A DNA stretch of 64,000 nucleotides from Affinundibacterium nitidum. GTDB lineage: Bacteria; Pseudomonadota; Gammaproteobacteria; Burkholderiales; Burkholderiaceae_D. The stretch lies in contig NZ_JACOFZ010000002.1 of the NCBI RefSeq assembly GCF_014284155.1, positions 514,469 to 578,468 of the forward strand, read 5' to 3'. The notes beneath the pieces are model-generated. The model worked only from the letters and a program-made list of their open reading frames with translations, did not search any database and had not been told where the DNA came from. The translations under genes were made by a program, and so were the position numbers. Shown one piece after another: positions 2,119 through 61,927 of this stretch; position 1 is the stretch's first letter, and each line of letters opens with the position of its first letter.

Positions 2119-3111
2119 CTACTTTGCCCGCAAATCGCGAATCGCACGCCAAGTCTCACTTTGACGCCAAGCCTTGCCCTCTAACTGTAAATCCCAAAGC
2201 GCGACACCAACACTTAATTGTTTTGCTTCTTGGATATGATTCAGAACACTAGGTCCCGCTCCGCCCTCGCCCCAATGGTCTAGCCATGTTGGCATTCCCA
2301 TCACAATTTGATCGGCTCGATAACCCGCTTTGACGCCATATTGCAGTTGCCAACTGTACTTAAACATCGCCGCACCGTTTTCGCAGACGTTCCCGCCCTC
2401 GGGTGTAAAACTGGCGGTGCTGCCCTCATACAAATCCTGATAGCCCATACTGTGAATGGCGTCGACTTGACCGCGCCAATCCACCCACCACGACATATTT
2501 GGCGCATTGGTGCAAGGACTGTGGAAACTATCTACCGTCAACAACTTCCCGCGTTTTTTCAGTTCTTTTGATAATTGCGCAACGAAATGGGCATAGGCTT
2601 GACGGTCATGATCGAGCGCCCCCTCACCTTCCAAATCCAAATCAATGCCATCTAAGTCGAACTTCTGCATTTCATTGAGCAAGGCGCGCGAAAATGATTT
2701 CGGCTGCTGTGCGAAAGCATTACGTGCTAATTCCCAGTCCCATTTTTTCATCACTTGAGAGTTGTTATACACCGTCAAAACAACTTGAATTCCTCGTTGT
2801 TTCGCCCACGCGACAAGCGCACGCACTTGAGCTTCGGTGACCAACTTACCTTGTTCATTGACAGGCGCGAACACGAGTGATTTACCATCTTTAGACGGAT
2901 TCCAAAATTGCAGACCAATTCGTGTCAGGCCTTTTGCGATATCAGGATTTGATTCCAAGGCCGGCAACGAAGTATCGATGCCATACGCTGGGACCCAGCC
3001 AATCACTTGAATCGATGGCGCGTTCTTGGATGGCGCATTAGTTGCCCGAGACGAAGGAACCATACACAAGGTGGCGATAGAAAAACCAAGGGCAAAAAGA
3101 AATAAGCGCAT
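2119..3111 (-). CDS. Secreted glycoside hydrolase family 18 protein (chitinase-like)
   Basis: This is a probable exported GH18 hydrolase acting on chitin-type beta-1,4-N-acetylglucosamine chains or a related glycan. The start at 3111 gives MRLFLFALGFSIATLC, a typical signal peptide. A start 57 bp further upstream exists but would put extra residues before the signal. The GH18 active-site motif DxxDxDxE is present as DGIDLDLE at residues 154-161, where the last glutamate is the catalytic acid in this family. The barrel strand motifs QVIGWVPAYG, VVLTVYNN and the late MGMPTWLDHWG also fit. At 330 residues it is a single catalytic domain with no carbohydrate-binding module. It lies between rplU and ispB, genes that are adjacent in many proteobacteria, so it looks inserted. 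The exact substrate cannot be read from the sequence. Confidence 0.88.
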   Translation of the reverse strand: MRLFLFALGFSIATLCMVPSSRATNAPSKNAPSIQVIGWVPAYGIDTSLPALESNPDIAKGLTRIGLQFWNPSKDGKSLVFAPVNEQGKLVTEAQVRALVAWAKQRGIQVVLTVYNNSQVMKKWDWELARNAFAQQPKSFSRALLNEMQKFDLDGIDLDLEGEGALDHDRQAYAHFVAQLSKELKKRGKLLTVDSFHSPCTNAPNMSWWVDWRGQVDAIHSMGYQDLYEGSTASFTPEGGNVCENGAAMFKYSWQLQYGVKAGYRADQIVMGMPTWLDHWGEGGAGPSVLNHIQEAKQLSVGVALWDLQLEGKAWRQSETWRAIRDLRAK

Positions 3112-3339
3112 GATTCCAGCTTTGACAGATAAAAGTAGTATTGTTAAGCGGATTAAAGAAAGTCGCAATTGGTATTTTACTGGTATTCATAAACAAGCCA
3201 CCCTCGAGAGCATCGATATGTGCTAGTGGTATCAATCGTAGATGGCTCAGAAAACTCTGCCGCAACGATTTTTGGTTATCTAAAAAACAAATTCAGTCAA
3301 CAATATGCGGGGCAAAATAGGCGAATTGACGGTGTTTTT

Positions 3340-4468: not shown

Positions 4469-4972
4469 CATTTTTAGCGCGAGTTCGCGTCAAAATTGCC
4501 GCCAATAGTGCAGACGTCTCGAATGAAAGACCGACGTATTTACAACACCAAGGGGACGGCCAGATTTTGTATCCGGTTCATCAAATAAGCCAGAATTCTC
4601 AACTTAGGTCCGACACAGGAGAAGCACCCTTACGATCCATTCGCCTGCAGAACTCAGGCATTTTGAGAGCGCGCATTACACAGATTGGCAACCTCAATCT
4701 ACGGCCTTATCGTCTTAGCTTCGAGGCGCAATTTGTAAAAACCAGTATCCTCCCCACCGACCAAGGTCTGAGCTCGCTCATAAACAATGTCCGTGGAATC
4801 ATGGCAAAAATTGCTTTTGGCTTGCTTTTGAAAGTATCATAAACGCTTCAAAAACAATAACTAAAAGTTCATTTCTCAACTGATGCCTGAGATAGATCAC
4901 TGTTTACAAAAGTCTTACTTAGCTGCATTATCACAAAGCAATCAACGATTATCCTTTTTCTAGACAAAAACT
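4469..4972. other. Gene-free stretch upstream of pilB
   Basis: About 500 bp lie between the ispB terminator and pilB. I see no tRNA, no family-recognisable protein and no repeat. A 91-codon frame starting with TTG at 4567 lacks a ribosome binding site and resembles nothing I know. The only regulatory-looking element is TGAGATAGATCA at 4888-4899, a TGA-N6-TCA core of the CRP/FNR type. pilB itself starts at 4973 without an obvious Shine-Dalgarno sequence. Confidence 0.4.
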
Positions 4973-16451: not shown

Positions 16452-17033
16452 TCAACTCTTAGACAGAGCTTTAAGGGCCGCTTTAATACCATCCGAAACG
16501 CCAGAGCCAGCAGGCACCAGTTTCAATGCAGCCAATGCTTCTTTGTCGGAGTAGCCCAAGGCCAGCAAGGCATTCAAAATATCGGAACTATGGTCACCCG
16601 CAATCGCAGCCGCGCCAGCCGCTCCCAAATCTGCCCCGAGCTTACCTTTCAACTCTAATAGCAAACGTTCGGCCGTCTTCTTACCAATGCCAGGCACCCG
16701 CGTTAAACGCCCTGCCTCTTGCAAAGTAATCGCTTGCGCCAAATCGGCCACTGACATCCCAGACAAAATCGACAAAGCGGTACGCGCCCCAACACCGCTA
16801 ATCTTAATCAACTGCCGAAACGTGGCCCGTTCTTCTGCTGTACCAAAGCCAAACAAGACATGCGCATCTTCGCGGATTGCCAAATGCGTCAATAAAGCCA
16901 CCTTTTCACCCAAAGCAGGCAAGTTATAAAAAGTACTCATCGGCACATCGATCTCATAGCCAACGCCTTGGCAATCAACCATGATTTGAGGGGGATTCTT
17001 TTCAATTAAGGTTCCGGCGATACGACCTATCAT
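16452..17033 (-). CDS. ruvA: Holliday junction-binding protein RuvA
   Basis: This tetrameric protein binds four-way junctions and loads RuvB. It starts [16 protein letters not shown], the invariant family start. It contains two helix-hairpin-helix DNA-binding motifs ([18 protein letters not shown] and [19 protein letters not shown]) and a C-terminal domain III that contacts RuvB ([17 protein letters not shown]). At 193 residues it is full length. Upstream lie a repeat-rich non-coding region and a membrane protein gene, which separate it from ruvC. Confidence 0.98.
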
Positions 17034-17179
17034 GCTGGGCTTTCATACTGTATAAATAAGCAGTAATAGTAAACTATTCTGGTGGGGTTGTGGGGAGCTT
17101 GTGGATGGTTTGCAAAGCTAAACCACGATTTCAAGACGCTTGAAACAAAATTGAGTTTTTGTCTATCGAGCCGCTGTAG

Positions 17180-17352
17180 GTCGGGGGTGGCCTGACAGTC
17201 TTTACCTTTTTTGCTTCGCCAAAAAAGGCGACCGCACTAAATCGCCCTTCGGGTGCCCAATGCTGCACAACGAAAAATGGGAAAGTGTTGAAACTCGCCT
17301 TCGGCTCAAACAGCAACACTTTCTTTTTCCATTTTCTGTCGCGCATCATTGG
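17180..17352 (-). repeat. Structured repeat copy A (inverted relative to copy B)
   Basis: On the minus strand this element reads, in order: an outer stem of about 12 bp (17352-17341 with 17268-17257), an inner stem made of AAAATGG, an A5 bulge and GAAAGTGTTG pairing with CAACACTTTC and CCATTTT (arms at 17335-17314 and 17290-17274), then the small hairpin core ACCCGAAGGGC, then hairpin CCTTTTTTG/CAAAAAAGG with loop GCGAAG (17228-17205), and a GC-rich tail near 17180-17200. It matches copy B in layout and sequence, with stem bases changed in pairs. Open frames across it are not genes. Confidence 0.85.
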
Positions 17353-17492
17353 CTATTTAGAAGCGGAACGGCGAAACCCACCGCTCAACCTCAGGCCGTT
17401 GAAATACGCTTAACCTTAGCTACTTTCTTTCGCAATTTCATTTGCTTACGGCCTTTGAGTGCGTATGTTTTGACTTGCCCGCGTCTGGCACT

Positions 17493-17682
17493 GCCATTTG
17501 TGCAGGGCAGAAAATGGAAAAAGAAAGCTTTGTTGTCTGAGCGAACCGAGTTTCAAAGCTTTCCCATTTTTTGTCCTGCACAAATGGGAACCCGAAGGGC
17601 AGTGACGGTTGCGTCGCCTTTCTTTGCTTACTTTCTTTGGCGAAGCAAAGAAAGTGAGTGGCCGCCGGGCCACACCCGGCCA
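17493..17682 (+). repeat. Structured repeat copy B
   Basis: The element opens with a perfect 13-bp outer stem CCATTTGTGCAGG (17494-17506) with CCTGCACAAATGG (17575-17587). Inside it is AAAATGG, an A5 bulge and GAAAGCTTTG (17511-17532) pairing with CAAAGCTTTC and CCATTTT (17554-17570). Next come CCCGAAGGGC, a hairpin ACTTTCTTTG/CAAAGAAAGT with loop GCGAAG (17630-17655), and a GC-rich palindromic tail ending CACACCCGGCC. It is the head-to-head partner of copy A, 141 bp away. The 141-bp spacer holds no gene, and a fragment near 17370-17385 faintly resembles the copy B tail. Confidence 0.85.
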
Positions 17683-17750
17683 GCGAAACAAACCGCAATC
17701 AAGGACCGATGTAAGTACGCAGCCGAATACGACCAATCAAAAGATAAAGA

Positions 17751-18269
17751 TCAAAGAGCAAACACGACAAAGTATTTAACAGCGAGAAAATCGTACCACT
17801 TACGCTCAAAACCACGAGCCCTCTCCATTTCCATTTGATCAATTGGAAAAAATACCTCCAACCGCTCCAATAAACCCGTTCTACGCAAATCTTTCTCAAA
17901 AACAATCACCATAGAGTTCTCGGTAGAAATCTTCAACATGATGTCTCGCTCACCGGTCTCCGAAGATTCAAAGCTACTTGCCTCAATCATTGAAATATCC
18001 TGAAATCGCATAACCTTTTGAACCTTGAATGTCTGAGCATATTCAAAAGCATCATCAAGAATTCGAATACCGCGCTTAGACCTTTCAGGGAAAATGACAA
18101 CAAATAGAAAAAATAGTCCCGTGATCAGAAAAAAAGCACCCGCGAGTAATGTACAGAAATTCGCCTCTAGGACTGAAAAGGCAACAAATGCGATAGATAG
18201 GCACAAGTAAAAATACGCATCGCTAGTTGAAATTATTGGTTCAATTGTCGAAAGCACTTTCCAGCTCAT
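17751..18269 (-). CDS. Hypothetical membrane protein
   Basis: I do not recognise this 172-residue protein. It has two clear hydrophobic segments near the N-terminus (about residues 20-37 and 40-63, LLAGAFFLITGLFFLFVVIF). They are followed by a soluble region with alternating beta-like strands (VQKVMRFQDISMIEASSF, IMLKISTENSMVIVFEKDL). This resembles small membrane proteins with a PH-like cytoplasmic domain, but that is only a guess. It starts 28 bp after the ruvC stop on the same strand and ends beside the structured repeat pair that separates it from ruvA. Codon use looks like its neighbours, so I treat it as real. Confidence 0.6.
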   Translation of the reverse strand: MSWKVLSTIEPIISTSDAYFYLCLSIAFVAFSVLEANFCTLLAGAFFLITGLFFLFVVIFPERSKRGIRILDDAFEYAQTFKVQKVMRFQDISMIEASSFESSETGERDIMLKISTENSMVIVFEKDLRRTGLLERLEVFFPIDQMEMERARGFERKWYDFLAVKYFVVFAL

Positions 18270-18297: not shown

Positions 18298-18840
18298 TCA
18301 CCCAATCAACCTCCCCCCCTTAACCCGCAAACCCTTCTTCGCCAACTCAGGCGCAATAGCGCCGAGGGTCTTCAAAGTATCTCCACTATGCGCATGACAA
18401 ATCGCCACGCCCAAAGCGTCGGCCGCATCGGAACTGGGTGTTCCAGATAGCGACAACAATCGCTGTACCATATCCTGCACTTGTTCTTTTTTTGCTTTAC
18501 CGTGTCCAACCACACCTTGCTTTACTTGCAGCGCCGTGTATTCAGCGACGAGAAGGTTGGCTTGAACCAAAGCGCAGATCGCTGCACCACGAGCTTGGCC
18601 AAGCAAGAGTGTAGATTGTGGATTGACGTTGACGAACACCTTCTCAATTGCAGCGCAATCGGGTTGGTAGGTTTGGATGATTTCGGTGACGCCCAAAAGA
18701 ATGGTTTTTAGACGTTCTGGCAGAGAGCCTTCTACCGTCTTGATCGTGCCGGAAGCGATATAACTCAGTTTGCTTCCCTGCTTGAAGATGACACCGAAAC
18801 CTGTGGTGCGTAAGCCGGGATCGATGCCTAGGATTTTCAT
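18298..18840 (-). CDS. ruvC: Holliday junction resolvase RuvC
   Basis: This dimeric endonuclease cuts Holliday junctions after RuvAB migration. All four metal-binding catalytic residues known from E. coli RuvC are at the same positions: D7 (GIDPG), E66 (AAIEKVFV), D138 and D141 ([11 protein letters not shown]). The 180-residue length is normal. It is the first of the ruv genes on the minus strand, but a membrane protein gene and about 700 bp of repeat DNA separate it from ruvA. Confidence 0.98.
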
Positions 18841-18946
18841 GGGTGTTTGCTGTTGATGAATGTATCGTTAGCAAATTATACGCAGATCCGATGCTTTCGC
18901 GTATGGATTCGTAGGTGAGAGTTGCTGTTATCGTTACTCGACGAAA

Positions 18947-18977
18947 GCCACTGGGTTCCTGCCTTCGCAGGAACGAC
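18947..18977 (+). repeat. REP-like palindromic element, copy 1
   Basis: This 31-bp unit contains the hairpin TTCCTGC-cttc-GCAGGAA flanked by GCCACTGGG and CGAC. It is repeated in inverted orientation at 19059-19089 and differs there by a paired T-A to C-G change at the outer end of the stem. Confidence 0.85.
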
Positions 18978-19058
18978 GGTAAGGAGTTTATCGTTGCTCA
19001 AGAGTTTGAAAGAAATCGAAGCCTGCCACTCCAGAAAAGCCACCGCGGCTTATTAACT

Positions 19059-19089
19059 GTCGCTCCTGCGAAGGCAGGAGCCCAGTGGC
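19059..19089 (-). repeat. REP-like palindromic element, copy 2 (inverted)
   Basis: Read on the minus strand it is GCCACTGGG, then the hairpin CTCCTGC-cttc-GCAGGAG, then CGAC, matching copy 1 at 29 of 31 positions. Both differences fall in the same stem base pair. The 81 bp between the copies contain a short AAGCC/GGCTT hairpin and no gene. Together they form a BIME-like unit between ruvC and the GIY-YIG gene. Confidence 0.85.
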
Positions 19090-19128
19090 GTTCAACTCAG
19101 AACCGCGAAGACTCAATAAGAGATCAAA

Positions 19129-42806: not shown

Positions 42807-44888
<2,082 letters not shown>

Positions 44889-44926
44889 TTTAAAAATACA
44901 CAGAACAATTACCACTGTGCGGGCGC

Positions 44927-59008: not shown

Positions 59009-60409
59009 TTAGAAACCAAATGCTGTTTTCAATAAACTAAATACTTTAATGTTATCGATCGTGCCTTTGAACAGTTTCGCATTCACGCCTGTAGCGAACA
59101 ACTTAACGTCGCCACCGCCGTGAGTTTCACTCGACAAACGTACGCCTGTTTCTTGCAAATAGTTGTCCGCCAATACGGTCGTGCTGCTCAAATTCGCGCG
59201 ACGATCTGGACGGTTTGGACCATTACCAAACACCAAAGTGGTGTAGGTATTGCCATCTGCATCTTTAGACTCGAGGCCAGTTTTGTAATCGCGGTTAATG
59301 TCCAAAATTGGATTACCTTTTTTGCCGTAACCATTAAATGCCAAAGTATGGTCATGATCCGCTGTTACCACGATCAAGGTGTTGGCCAATGTAGGGTCTG
59401 TCAATTTTGCTTTATCTAATGCTGCTTTGATCGCATCATCAAATGCAATGGTGTCAGCCAAAGCGCGTTTAGCGTTCGTGCCATGCAAAGCGTGGTCGAT
59501 ACGGCCGCCTTCGACCATCAAGAAGTATCCATTACTATTTTGCGATAACAAGTCCATCGCTTTGACAGTCATTTCAGCCAAACTTGGTTGTGTCGCACCT
59601 TCACCTACTGGTGGATTTGCAACGCGATCAAGTTCGTATTCGAGATGGCTCTTGCTGCTGAACAAACCGATGAATTTCTTACTGTTTGGTGCTGCTGCCA
59701 TCTCTGCTTTTGTTGCAGCAACGGTGTAACCTTTTGCTGCCAATTCGGCTAACAAGTCACGGCCATCTGCACGACCTGTTTTATTGCTGGTAGCGTTAAA
59801 AGGTGTGAAGTGGTTACGACCACCACCCATCAAGACATCGACGCCATCACCCAAGGCTGTGTTGTAACCAGCGCCACCTGGAATCGCCTGTGCAGCGATA
59901 TGGTATTGCGCATTACGGTTACAAATATGGGAGAAAGTTGCAGCAGGTGTTGCATGTGTCAATTCAGTTGTTGTGATTGAACCGACTGCTTTGCCTTTTG
60001 CCTTCGCCAACTCCAAAATCGTTGGTACTGAAGTCCCGTTGCCAGTTGCCGCACAGTTATTCACGCCGAGATTGCCGTTCGCATCTTTGCTAGGTGGCGT
60101 TGCTACAGTTTCGGGCGACATCGACAAAACTTCATTATTCATCTTAACACCAGTCATGTACGCTGCCATGGATGGTGCACTGTCTGTCGTTTGTGCGTCG
60201 TAAGAATAAGTCTTGATGCGCGCTGTGCGCTCCAATTTATCCATCGTCAAACTACCATCTTCTCCGTATTTATAGATACGAGATGCAGTGATAGTCGATG
60301 GGCCCATGCCATCGCCAAGGAAAAAGATTACGTTTTTTGCCGTACTCTGCGCAGATGCCAATTGGGCGAAGCTCAATGCCAACAATGTGGCGATAATATG
60401 TCGTTTCAT
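59009..60409 (-). CDS. Alkaline phosphatase (secreted), second of two tandem genes
   Basis: This periplasmic metal-dependent phosphomonoesterase is of the PhoA superfamily. A signal peptide (HIIATLLALSFAQLASA) is followed by the metal-site start NVIFFLGDGMGPST. The nucleophile serine is in TTDSAPSMAAYMTGVKMN. Later ligands lie in VEGGRIDHALHG, VTADHDHTLAFNG and SSETHGGGDVKLFATG. Length 466. It is closely related to the upstream copy (54 bp away), which carries a lipoprotein signal, so the two are paralogues made by tandem duplication and likely share the Pho promoter upstream of the first copy. Confidence 0.95.
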   Translation of the reverse strand: MKRHIIATLLALSFAQLASAQSTAKNVIFFLGDGMGPSTITASRIYKYGEDGSLTMDKLERTARIKTYSYDAQTTDSAPSMAAYMTGVKMNNEVLSMSPETVATPPSKDANGNLGVNNCAATGNGTSVPTILELAKAKGKAVGSITTTELTHATPAATFSHICNRNAQYHIAAQAIPGGAGYNTALGDGVDVLMGGGRNHFTPFNATSNKTGRADGRDLLAELAAKGYTVAATKAEMAAAPNSKKFIGLFSSKSHLEYELDRVANPPVGEGATQPSLAEMTVKAMDLLSQNSNGYFLMVEGGRIDHALHGTNAKRALADTIAFDDAIKAALDKAKLTDPTLANTLIVVTADHDHTLAFNGYGKKGNPILDINRDYKTGLESKDADGNTYTTLVFGNGPNRPDRRANLSSTTVLADNYLQETGVRLSSETHGGGDVKLFATGVNAKLFKGTIDNIKVFSLLKTAFGF

Positions 60410-60463: not shown

Positions 60464-61927
60464 TTACAAACCGACAGCAGCTTTCACTAAGGTATAGACT
60501 TTGGTGTTATCGATCGTGCCCATGAAGGTATCTGCACCTTTACCAATTGCGCCAAGGAACACATCTGTACCGCCGTGCGTTTCACTACCAGCAGCAACGC
60601 GAACTACCGCCTCTTGGTGATAAGTATTTGCACTTGTAGCTGTTTCGTCGAAACCAACCAAAATAGAACGTGGGCCTTGCGTGCGATTTTCACCATTACC
60701 GAAACCGATGATGGAATAAGGCATACCATCCATATCTTTGTCTGGAACACCAGTCACATAATTTTTCACCACGCCCAATACGCCTGGATTCGTTGCTGAT
60801 GTTTTGCCTGTGCGCTTTGCATAACCGTTCAAGACGAGAGTGTGATCATGATCAGCAGTTACTACGATCAAGGTATTCTTCAACTCAGGATCTGTTACTT
60901 TTGCTTTCGCGATAGCTGCTTTGATTGCGTTATCGAATGCCACCATATCGTGCAAGGCTTTTTTCGCTGTTGTTTCATGCAAAGCGTGATCGATACGGCC
61001 GCCTTCGACCATCAAGAAGTAACCTTTAGAATTTTTGCCGAGTACGTCCATTGCTTTGGTCGTCATTTCAGCCAAGCTTGGTTCTTTTGCTGGGTCACGG
61101 TCGAGGTCGTAGCTCATGTGGCTCGATGTGAACAAGCCGAATAAACGATCTGTCTTGGTGCCATCAATTGCCGCCAATTCAGCTTGAGTACCAGCGTATG
61201 CATAGTTCTTCGCTTTCATTTCAGCCACGAGGTCACGACCGTCAGAACGCTTGCCACCATCTTTGAATGGGATGAAGAATTGCTTACCACCACCAAGCAA
61301 AACGTCGAGGCCTGTTGTACCCAATGCGTTGTTGTAGCCAGCACCGCCTGGTACCGCTGCCGCAGCGATGTCATTTTCCAAATCGCGATGGCAGATGTGG
61401 GAATACGTTGCTGCTGGTGTCGCATGGGTCACACGCGTTGTTGTGACGACGCCTGTCGACAAGCCTTTTGCTTTAGCCGCTTCCAACAAAGTTGGTGCCG
61501 CTGTTCCGTTACTTGTGCCGCAGTTATTCACCAACTTATTGCCGTTAGCGTCTACGCCAGGATCTTTAGCGATCGTGTCTGAAGACATCGAAATCACTTC
61601 ATTATTCATTTTAACGCCGGTCATATAGGCAGACATGGATGGAGCACTATCCGTCACCTGCGCATCATTTGAAAAAGTTTTTACAAATGCTGTCTCTGGC
61701 AAGGTGTCGACTGTCAACTCTCCATCTTCGCCCACCGCATAAATACGTGCCGCTGTCATGGTGGTCATACCCATGCCATCACCAAGGAAGAAGATCACAT
61801 TTTTTGGTGCTTCAGCCACTGGGGTCACAGGTACTGGATCGGCTGCTTTATCGCTTTTACCGCAGGCAGCGAGCGCCAAACTTACGGCAGCGGTCAGAGC
61901 TGCCAACACAAGCTTATTTGATTTCAT
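60464..61927 (-). CDS. Alkaline phosphatase (lipoprotein), first of two tandem genes
   Basis: This PhoA-superfamily phosphatase is the paralogue of the gene just downstream. The start at 61927 (MKSNKLVLAALTAAVSLALAAC) has AGGA 9 nt upstream; an ATG three codons earlier sits too close to that site. The lipobox is ALAAC and the mature chain begins GKSDKAADPVPVTP. The active-site segments are FFLGDGMGM, VTDSAPSMSAYMTG, VEGGRIDHALHE, VTADHDHTLVLNG and GSETHGGTDVFL. The mature part is 487 residues with the signal. A Pho box lies 47-64 bp upstream of the ATG. Confidence 0.95.
   Translation of the reverse strand: MKSNKLVLAALTAAVSLALAACGKSDKAADPVPVTPVAEAPKNVIFFLGDGMGMTTMTAARIYAVGEDGELTVDTLPETAFVKTFSNDAQVTDSAPSMSAYMTGVKMNNEVISMSSDTIAKDPGVDANGNKLVNNCGTSNGTAAPTLLEAAKAKGLSTGVVTTTRVTHATPAATYSHICHRDLENDIAAAAVPGGAGYNNALGTTGLDVLLGGGKQFFIPFKDGGKRSDGRDLVAEMKAKNYAYAGTQAELAAIDGTKTDRLFGLFTSSHMSYDLDRDPAKEPSLAEMTTKAMDVLGKNSKGYFLMVEGGRIDHALHETTAKKALHDMVAFDNAIKAAIAKAKVTDPELKNTLIVVTADHDHTLVLNGYAKRTGKTSATNPGVLGVVKNYVTGVPDKDMDGMPYSIIGFGNGENRTQGPRSILVGFDETATSANTYHQEAVVRVAAGSETHGGTDVFLGAIGKGADTFMGTIDNTKVYTLVKAAVGL

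Follow-up and report, generated by a model that had tools for sequence, protein, structure and literature searches.

An inverted doublet of large structured repeats in a ruvC-ruvA gap and its family of units with a putative triple-helix pseudoknot tail

A REP is defined as a small palindrome with an invariant foot tetranucleotide, and bcr1 of the Bacillus cereus group is a mobile repeat with a structured sequence about 150 nt long. Telomerase RNA, SAM-II and preQ1-II are pseudoknots with major-groove triple helices, and the U.A-U and C+.G-C Hoogsteen triples need a third strand that runs parallel to the purine strand. Among interspersed repeats, the closest described systems are the REPINs, or REP doublets with RAYT (PMC3116915), and BOX, RUP and SPRITE of Streptococcus pneumoniae, some of which are transcribed according to the available part of the text (PMC3049150). 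The Rfam family TwoAYGGAY (RF01731), which enters the comparison below, was rated as probably an RNA in the original screen, as given in the accessible portion of that paper (PMC2864571).

The window analysed here (the whole stretch of 64,000 nucleotides) carries an inverted pair of diverged structured units with their tails outward (17179–17687). By sequence comparison we find in the family to which they belong a paired and a parallel sequence pattern, covariation, a strand preference, a large number of copies, a recurrent arrangement and empty sites. The putative triple-helix pseudoknot, the empty ruv sites, the pairs with cargo and the link to TwoAYGGAY are new beyond an earlier note on this DNA. 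No published description of the element was found in a search whose scope excluded most subscription papers and bioRxiv preprints, and a word look-up of betaproteobacterial names gave no match in the available text of PMC3733652 and PMC12306157.

The doublet at the ruv locus

The element lies between ruvA and an orphan ORF that is followed by ruvC, i.e., in the ruvC-ruvA gap (Table 1). The earlier note had described a copy A on the minus strand and a copy B on the plus strand at this place, and both are present there, although the element is slightly larger than was given and extends from 17179 to about 17687; the stems, the mini-hairpin, the GCGAAG loop and the GC-rich tail that it quoted are all exact in the window. 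A and B match each other in inverted orientation over 54 nt (83%) and 50 nt (80%), and of the quoted stems, A has GAAAGTGTTG/CAACACTTTC and B has GAAAGCTTTG/CAAAGCTTTC. When folded with DNA parameters, copy B has a z of −6.05 and copy A a z of −3.60 relative to shuffled sequences, and for each copy none of 200 shuffles was as good. Copy A is damaged: of the two pyrimidine tracts that an intact unit, such as the ortholog L074, has near its tail, it retains one, so a full tail, and with it a triple helix, is possible in B only.

Table 1. Coordinates of the features at the ruv locus, in window positions. The ends of P1 in B, as written, overlap P2 and P3 by 1–2 bases.
Feature	Position	Strand
ruvA	16452–17033	minus
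Copy A of structured unit, tail toward 17179	about 17179–17360	minus
Spacer between heads of A and B	17361–17488	none
Copy B of structured unit, intact, tail toward 17680	about 17489–17680	plus
P1 outer stem of B	17489–17495 with 17598–17604 (span 17489–17604)	plus
P2 of B, long hairpin with A-rich bulge	17494–17587	plus
Inner stem of P2 in B	17523–17532/17554–17563	plus
Conserved tip of P2 in B	17533–17553	plus
P3 mini-hairpin of B, CCCGAAGGG	17591–17599	plus
S1a of B, pairs with S1b (17639–17643) in hairpin loop (pseudoknot)	17614–17618	plus
L1 of B, putative third strand of triple helix	17619–17627	plus
S2 hairpin of B (S2a 17628–17639, S2b 17646–17657)	17628–17657	plus
P5 and P6 of B, second pair of crossing stems, GTGG/CCAC and GCCGGG/CCCGGC	17658–17680	plus
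Outer end past tail of B, partly conserved in Undibacterium copies	17681–17687	plus
Orphan ORF between ruvC and element	17751–18269	minus
ruvC	18298–18840	minus

Around the window copy (17000–17800) we found no promoter-like site and no intrinsic terminator 3' of the tail end; two intrinsic-terminator candidates (a GC hairpin and an immediate T run) are present, against 1.1 expected, one inside B before S1a ends and the other on the minus strand in the P5 region of B. This copy is enclosed in an operon that could ill afford a strong terminator, which, like the lack of a promoter-like site, speaks against the reading favoured below. A protein-coding nature of three overlapping ORFs was rejected (no Pfam or NCBIfam family over its cut-off), as were other Rfam identities: the 12 matches to the window element at E up to 5 are to eukaryotic miRNA models and U12 and are far below the gathering scores, and one more miRNA model that matched in L111 was rejected likewise. 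The one Rfam match over its gathering score in the window is a TPP riboswitch (RF00059, 62.6 bits, 44796–44894, minus strand). A small interspersed palindromic repeat, CCACTGG..TTCCTGCCTTCGCAGGAA, adjoins ruvC (18943–18980 and 19056–19093), and a stretch resembling it is also found beside the structured units in L074. Elsewhere in the window a 269-nt stretch occurs twice (59328–59596 and 60822–61090), 74% alike and 1494 bp apart; these are probably paralogous genes.

A search of 40 congeneric genomes gave a RuvA in 38, and occupancy was examined at 30 ruvA loci, that of the window's own genome included. Units are present upstream of ruvA in six (the own genome among them) and a remnant in one, 18 are empty with ruvC adjacent, and five are unassignable, with no ruvC within reach. 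The RuvA proteins of the occupied set are 96–100% identical to that of the window, and the site of G008, whose RuvA is 96% identical, is empty; the ruv copy thus came or went inside the clade. At the same place as the orphan ORF of the window, G002 has a similar ORF and G031 a different one (by eye), so genes seem to turn over in the ruvC-ruvA gap of this clade.

Stems of the head and the tail pseudoknot

From 5' to 3', a unit consists of P1, P2, P3, S1a, L1, S2a, S1b and S2b, followed by the crossing stems P5 and P6. P2 is a long hairpin with an A-rich bulge, and its stem varies freely while its tip is constant (TGTYTGAG-C(GNA)G-CGAGTT, present in 139 of 165 units). The inner P2 stem pairs at eight or nine of the nine best-placed positions in 133 of the 139 tip-bearing units, which among them have 60 distinct 5' arms; when arms were swapped between units with the same freedom of placement, 273 of 3000 combinations did so. 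The outer stem P1 is less strongly supported, with a helix of at least six in 74 of 114 units against 24.9% of 2000 swaps. The interior non-Watson-Crick cells of the inner P2 stem, read on the given strand in 138 units and counted as sequences, not events, comprise 30 G-U (from 18 distinct stems), 3 A-C (from 3 stems) and 21 other mismatches, of which 15 are G-A. This G-U excess favours RNA of the given strand. Tip loops of the C-GNA-G kind, which 133 of 139 units have, would be at home in single-stranded DNA as well. At two loci from different genomes (L119, about 3045–3140, and L150, about 4750–4855) the P2 tip loop is split by a similar nested GC-rich palindromic insert.

With both knots of the tail written out for 55 sequences, 97.5% of 1429 cells are paired and 12 of 26 pairs have changed on both sides. 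The covariation score is 0.268, as against 0.124 in shuffles in which relatedness is not kept and at most 0.091 with the partners slid, a comparison in which the structure is favoured by the mere fact that it was drawn on one of the 55 sequences; none of 500 shuffles reaches the observed value on four of five measures, and four of 500 do so on the fifth (further pair types). The crossing stem S1 is nearly constant in these 55 tails, where each of its four pairs is the commonest in at least 54. Elsewhere, other families of the order included, it takes 23 sequence types with G-U allowed, a few of which may be chance because S1 was placed to maximise pairing; by eye they include CGGCC/GGCCG, TGTCC/GGACA, CCGCC/GGCGG, TGCCC/GGGCA, GCGCA/TGCGT and TGGCA/TGCCA. 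At least four S1 pairs are formed by 172 of 213 real tails and by 1943 of 5000 swapped ones, a weak control since most loops are alike, and by eye a clear S1 is absent from at least two of 27 class-level tails (L279 and the plus tail of L292). S1 crosses and covaries in the manner of an H-type pseudoknot.

The first pyrimidine tract is a mirror, not a direct repeat, of a hairpin strand (TTCTTTT with AAGAAAA, TTTCTTTT with AAAGAAAA, TTTTCTTT with AAAAGAAA), and L1 would therefore run parallel to the S2 purines, the course that a third strand in the major groove must take. An S1 with four or more pairs accompanies 166 of 215 tracts (49 have no such S1); 79 of these 166 are uninformative, and the 87 informative ones divide into 79 mirror (fixed register), 4 direct (free offset) and 4 ties. 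With no S1 filter and a free offset, the 215 tracts give 58 mirror, 0 direct, 41 ties, 112 symmetric and 4 short. A cruder register rule gives 82 mirror, 21 direct, 18 ties and 92 uninformative among 213 tracts, its direct cases being partly unrelated C-rich hairpins and partly misplaced L1 starts. From these patterns we infer that the tail is an H-type pseudoknot with L1 as a major-groove third strand. The non-Watson-Crick cells of the tail are 37 G-U against 11 A-C, or 7 against 11 without one dominant column pair, and the foot tetranucleotide varies and covaries with the loop. The S2 loop GCGAAG is recurrently GCGAGA in several genera (L002, L003, L006, L022, L040, L049 and L058), where the change is confined to the last bases and spares the S1 half.

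The earlier note had read the paired differences between A and B as selection on a folded structure. Imperfect palindromes can be corrected by template switching, and copies exchange parts, so two copies alone cannot prove this; stem pairing and covariation across the family do support it. On the choice between RNA and DNA, which the note left open, the excess of G-U over A-C, the pseudoknots and the Rfam link favour RNA of the given strand.

Copy number, arrangement and gene setting

In its own genome the element has 18 overlapping BLAST matches at about seven loci, and the tail covariance model R1, built from 55 tails, finds 12 tails at E ≤ 0.001, which form five head-to-head pairs, one single and one remnant. 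BLAST with a 571-bp region matched 33 of 40 Undibacterium genomes and 69 of 146 genomes of the family. At order level R1 tails were found in 69 of 200 genomes, which represent 43 of 109 genera, and at class level in 39 of 274, three of these 39 being from the own order; the levels are those of the genome collection, the NCBI order is Burkholderiales and the class we take to be Gammaproteobacteria in the GTDB sense. Copies within one genome are not independent of each other. Six BLAST-negative congeners searched with R1 gave nothing at E ≤ 1 in five cases and one chance-level match. The covariance-model search and copy count that the earlier note proposed have thus produced many further copies, in the own genome and in relatives, and their stems are not broken as often as unpaired positions change, the outcome that, like a lack of further copies, the note had named as speaking against it. 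Spread by phages or plasmids was rejected as the main route: 50,697 phage records gave no match, a 27-base exact core is absent from viral contigs, and the 7 matching records among 72,556 plasmid records are all predicted to be non-mobilizable.

Neighbouring units less than 1.6 kb apart are arranged head-to-head in 96 cases, in tandem in 21 and tail-to-tail in 3 when all loci are counted, which includes stretches fetched on suspicion of pairs; without these purposely chosen stretches the numbers are 74, 13 and 3 (n = 90). The head-to-head arrangement is also found outside the order. In L002, L003 and L019 the A and B halves are closer to the same-type half of the window copy than to the other type, so the doublet was copied whole. 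G065 has four doublets at four sites that are 84.8–96.0% alike over 745–880 bp; their similarity extends roughly 105–135 bp beyond the tails and breaks off close to T-rich stretches, some of which have what by eye are terminator-like hairpins. The two best (recent) of these copies, inspected by eye in the occupied sites themselves, show no target duplication. The outer end of a recent G065 doublet is split by an insert of ~860 bp that is IS5-like by eye (L247, about 1756–2612). At L020, L036, L075, L114 and L140 doublets grow outward to tandem arrays, minus-minus-plus or minus-plus-plus, whose spacing of about 360–600 bp resembles that of tandem REPIN clusters.

Taking ORFs of at least 150 codons as proxies for genes, 23 of 40 pairs from order and family loci are flanked by convergent genes, 14 by tandem genes and 3 by divergent ones, the last (L033, L035 and L039) looking like one shared site; the baseline for all adjacent ORF pairs of the loci is 64 convergent of 287. 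At class-level loci the convergent, tandem and divergent gaps hold 4, 2 and 1 pairs and 2, 1 and 1 singles, respectively. Mapping relative to genes, also proposed in the earlier note, thus places the pairs mostly between convergent or tandem genes, and of the singles 1 of 38 is in a divergent gap. An apparent sense bias of the singles (27 of 34 with the 5' gene on the same strand) was weakened, as convergent gaps are uninformative in this respect and without them the count is 14 to 7, or, in a recount, 13 sense to 9 antisense copies in tandem gaps. This lack of a clear orientation bias weakens a role in 3'-UTRs. The avoidance of divergent gaps is also expected from insertion tolerance alone; a similar gap preference of the pneumococcal repeats is read as tolerance of insertions in the part of that study at hand (PMC3049150).

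Readings of the doublet and its nearest relatives

The unit most likely acts as RNA, as far as its strand preference and crossing stems can tell. More fully, we favour a REPIN-like non-autonomous doublet of ~190-nt structured units that would act as RNA near gene ends, a reading in which our confidence and our doubt are about equal. The head would be a long hairpin with a variable stem and a conserved tip, and the 3' tail after it an H-type pseudoknot that a pyrimidine third strand, placed in the hairpin's major groove, would lock, plus a second pair of crossing stems. Mobilised in trans, the doublet would spread and settle where genes end. Doublets lie mostly in convergent or co-oriented gaps, where read-through transcripts, whichever side they come from, would contain the far unit in sense, and the folded tail may stall 3'–5' decay and/or read-through and so turn the doublet into a 3' boundary that does no harm or is of use. 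With this geometry the doublet could serve as a 3' shield in both directions, and its shape may be kept since the RNA fold matters to the element, to host transcripts or to both.

A possible, although unlikely, alternative is a giant REPIN-like DNA element that folds as single-stranded DNA only, for a Y1 or other transposase acting in trans, and has no RNA role. The terminal hairpin of the unit, which we take to resemble GTAG-type REPs, is reminiscent of such an element, and the C-GNA-G loops of its tips are very stable in DNA. The empty ruv sites and the Y1 genes found in 39 of 40 congeners would fit as well, as would the inverted doublets plus singles, which REPINs also have (PMC3116915). 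However, the Y1 genes are also present in congeners without units, and none of 30 Y1-transposase loci fetched, which are part of the Y1 matches listed, has a unit in its flanks of ~1.5 kb at E ≤ 0.001 (one chance-level match has an E of 0.1). Terminal inverted repeats are seen at the element ends, and no autonomous element sharing them was found (the test for a DDE-type MITE); the IS481-type transposase of L228, tried as an autonomous partner, is an insertion inside the right unit. A foot tetranucleotide that is not invariant and covaries with the loop, the 30 G-U over 3 A-C cells of the inner hairpin, and the pseudoknot with its parallel third strand, which is an RNA-type fold, all speak against a DNA-only element.

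It is rather improbable that the unit is a protein-binding RNA whose head titrates or recruits a regulator and whose tail merely stabilises the RNA, the regulator being CsrA/RsmA where GGA hairpins occur and another protein in Burkholderiales. The tip, sequence-conserved on a variable stem, would be expected of such a head, and the accessible text of a motif study predicts CsrA binding sites in the TwoAYGGAY family (PMC4333381). Among 20 loci scanned, three (L283, L288 and L293) have units with a TwoAYGGAY head, in five matches that end before the pseudoknot tail, and at 16 of 30 loci fetched with TwoAYGGAY an R1 tail lies on the same strand and 3' side within 100 nt (E ≤ 0.005), where the adjacency was read by eye and L341, counted among the 16, matches in part; the remaining 14 have no R1 tail next to TwoAYGGAY. 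Against this stand the tip in Burkholderiales, whose sequence has no GGA hairpin, the window element, which has no TwoAYGGAY match at E up to 5, and the many different intergenic places in which copies are found.

Quite improbable in our view is a new kind of mobile gene cassette, in which inverted triplex-ended units would bracket no gene or a small one, some of defence type, and the folded RNA tail would be both a transcript shield and the signal for a copying enzyme, perhaps a reverse transcriptase, that takes the cassette to new gene ends across the class. Units are more than 800 bp apart in 4 of 74 head-to-head pairs of the unchosen set and in 11 of 96 in all. Nine gene-bearing interiors were examined, four with some family match and five without: a bSEFIR protein (PADLOC, E of 3.6e-76; TIR_2 and SEFIR in Pfam), a DUF6988 protein or candidate defence PDC-S52 (1.8e-20), a protein whose 343-residue ORF, scanned over 303 residues, matches an RT-associated PD-(D/E)XK model (1.3e-6), and a weak FG-GAP match under its cut-off. 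A tenth interior holds an inserted IS481-type element. This cargo sample is small and was picked by size, so it says nothing on defence enrichment.

Very improbable, and already strained, is the idea that the paired changes are mostly mutational, in which case the fold would be under no selection, and template switching at hairpins together with gene conversion between copies would maintain perfect palindromes. In its favour, the minus unit of L002 is by eye chimeric and its stem is broken, and 60 stem arms surround a constant tip; however, template switching yields antiparallel palindromes and would give neither the parallel mirror tract (79 against 4) nor the crossing stems S1, P5 and P6 nor the G-U strand preference.

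If the RNA-acting doublet that we favour is right, this repeat family, of a kind that the earlier note knew from scattered annotations as short proteins, would be a class of large structured RNAs whose comparison gives strong evidence that bacteria maintain an RNA triple helix, and its units would be candidate exonuclease-resistance modules. The REPIN idea of inverted doublets as copying units would then hold for a 190-nt RNA-like unit as well as for small palindromes, and doublets with cargo could offer single genes, defence genes among them, a new way to move. If the TwoAYGGAY link is true, this unexplained Rfam family gains a partner module and a genomic setting.

Among known systems, bcr1, as generally described, shares with the present element that it is a structured mobile repeat. 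Telomerase RNA, SAM-II and preQ1-II have the same order S1a-L1-S2a-S1b-S2b, with L1 parallel to the S2b purines, but are single-copy RNAs or riboswitches and not an interspersed repeat. TwoAYGGAY serves as the head of units with this tail in some class-level genomes, whereas the window copy does not match it and units of Burkholderiales have a different type of head. BOX, RUP and SPRITE are likewise structured, interspersed, non-autonomous repeats with an excess in convergent gaps, but they belong to another phylum, and the available part of the text describes no head-to-head rule or triple-helix pseudoknot for them (PMC3049150). The REPINs, as presented in the accessible portion of their description (PMC3116915), are inverted, structured, intergenic doublets with many copies per genome, singles that are likely remnants, compensatory hairpin changes and tandem clusters. 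The present family shares the inverted doublet, with 74 of 90 neighbouring pairs (<1.6 kb) head-to-head, and differs in its units, which at ~190 nt and with a variable foot tetranucleotide are not REP palindromes and carry pseudoknots and a putative third strand, in its spacer, which sometimes holds a gene, and in its relation to RAYT, there being no Y1 gene flanked by copies among the 30 Y1 loci fetched.
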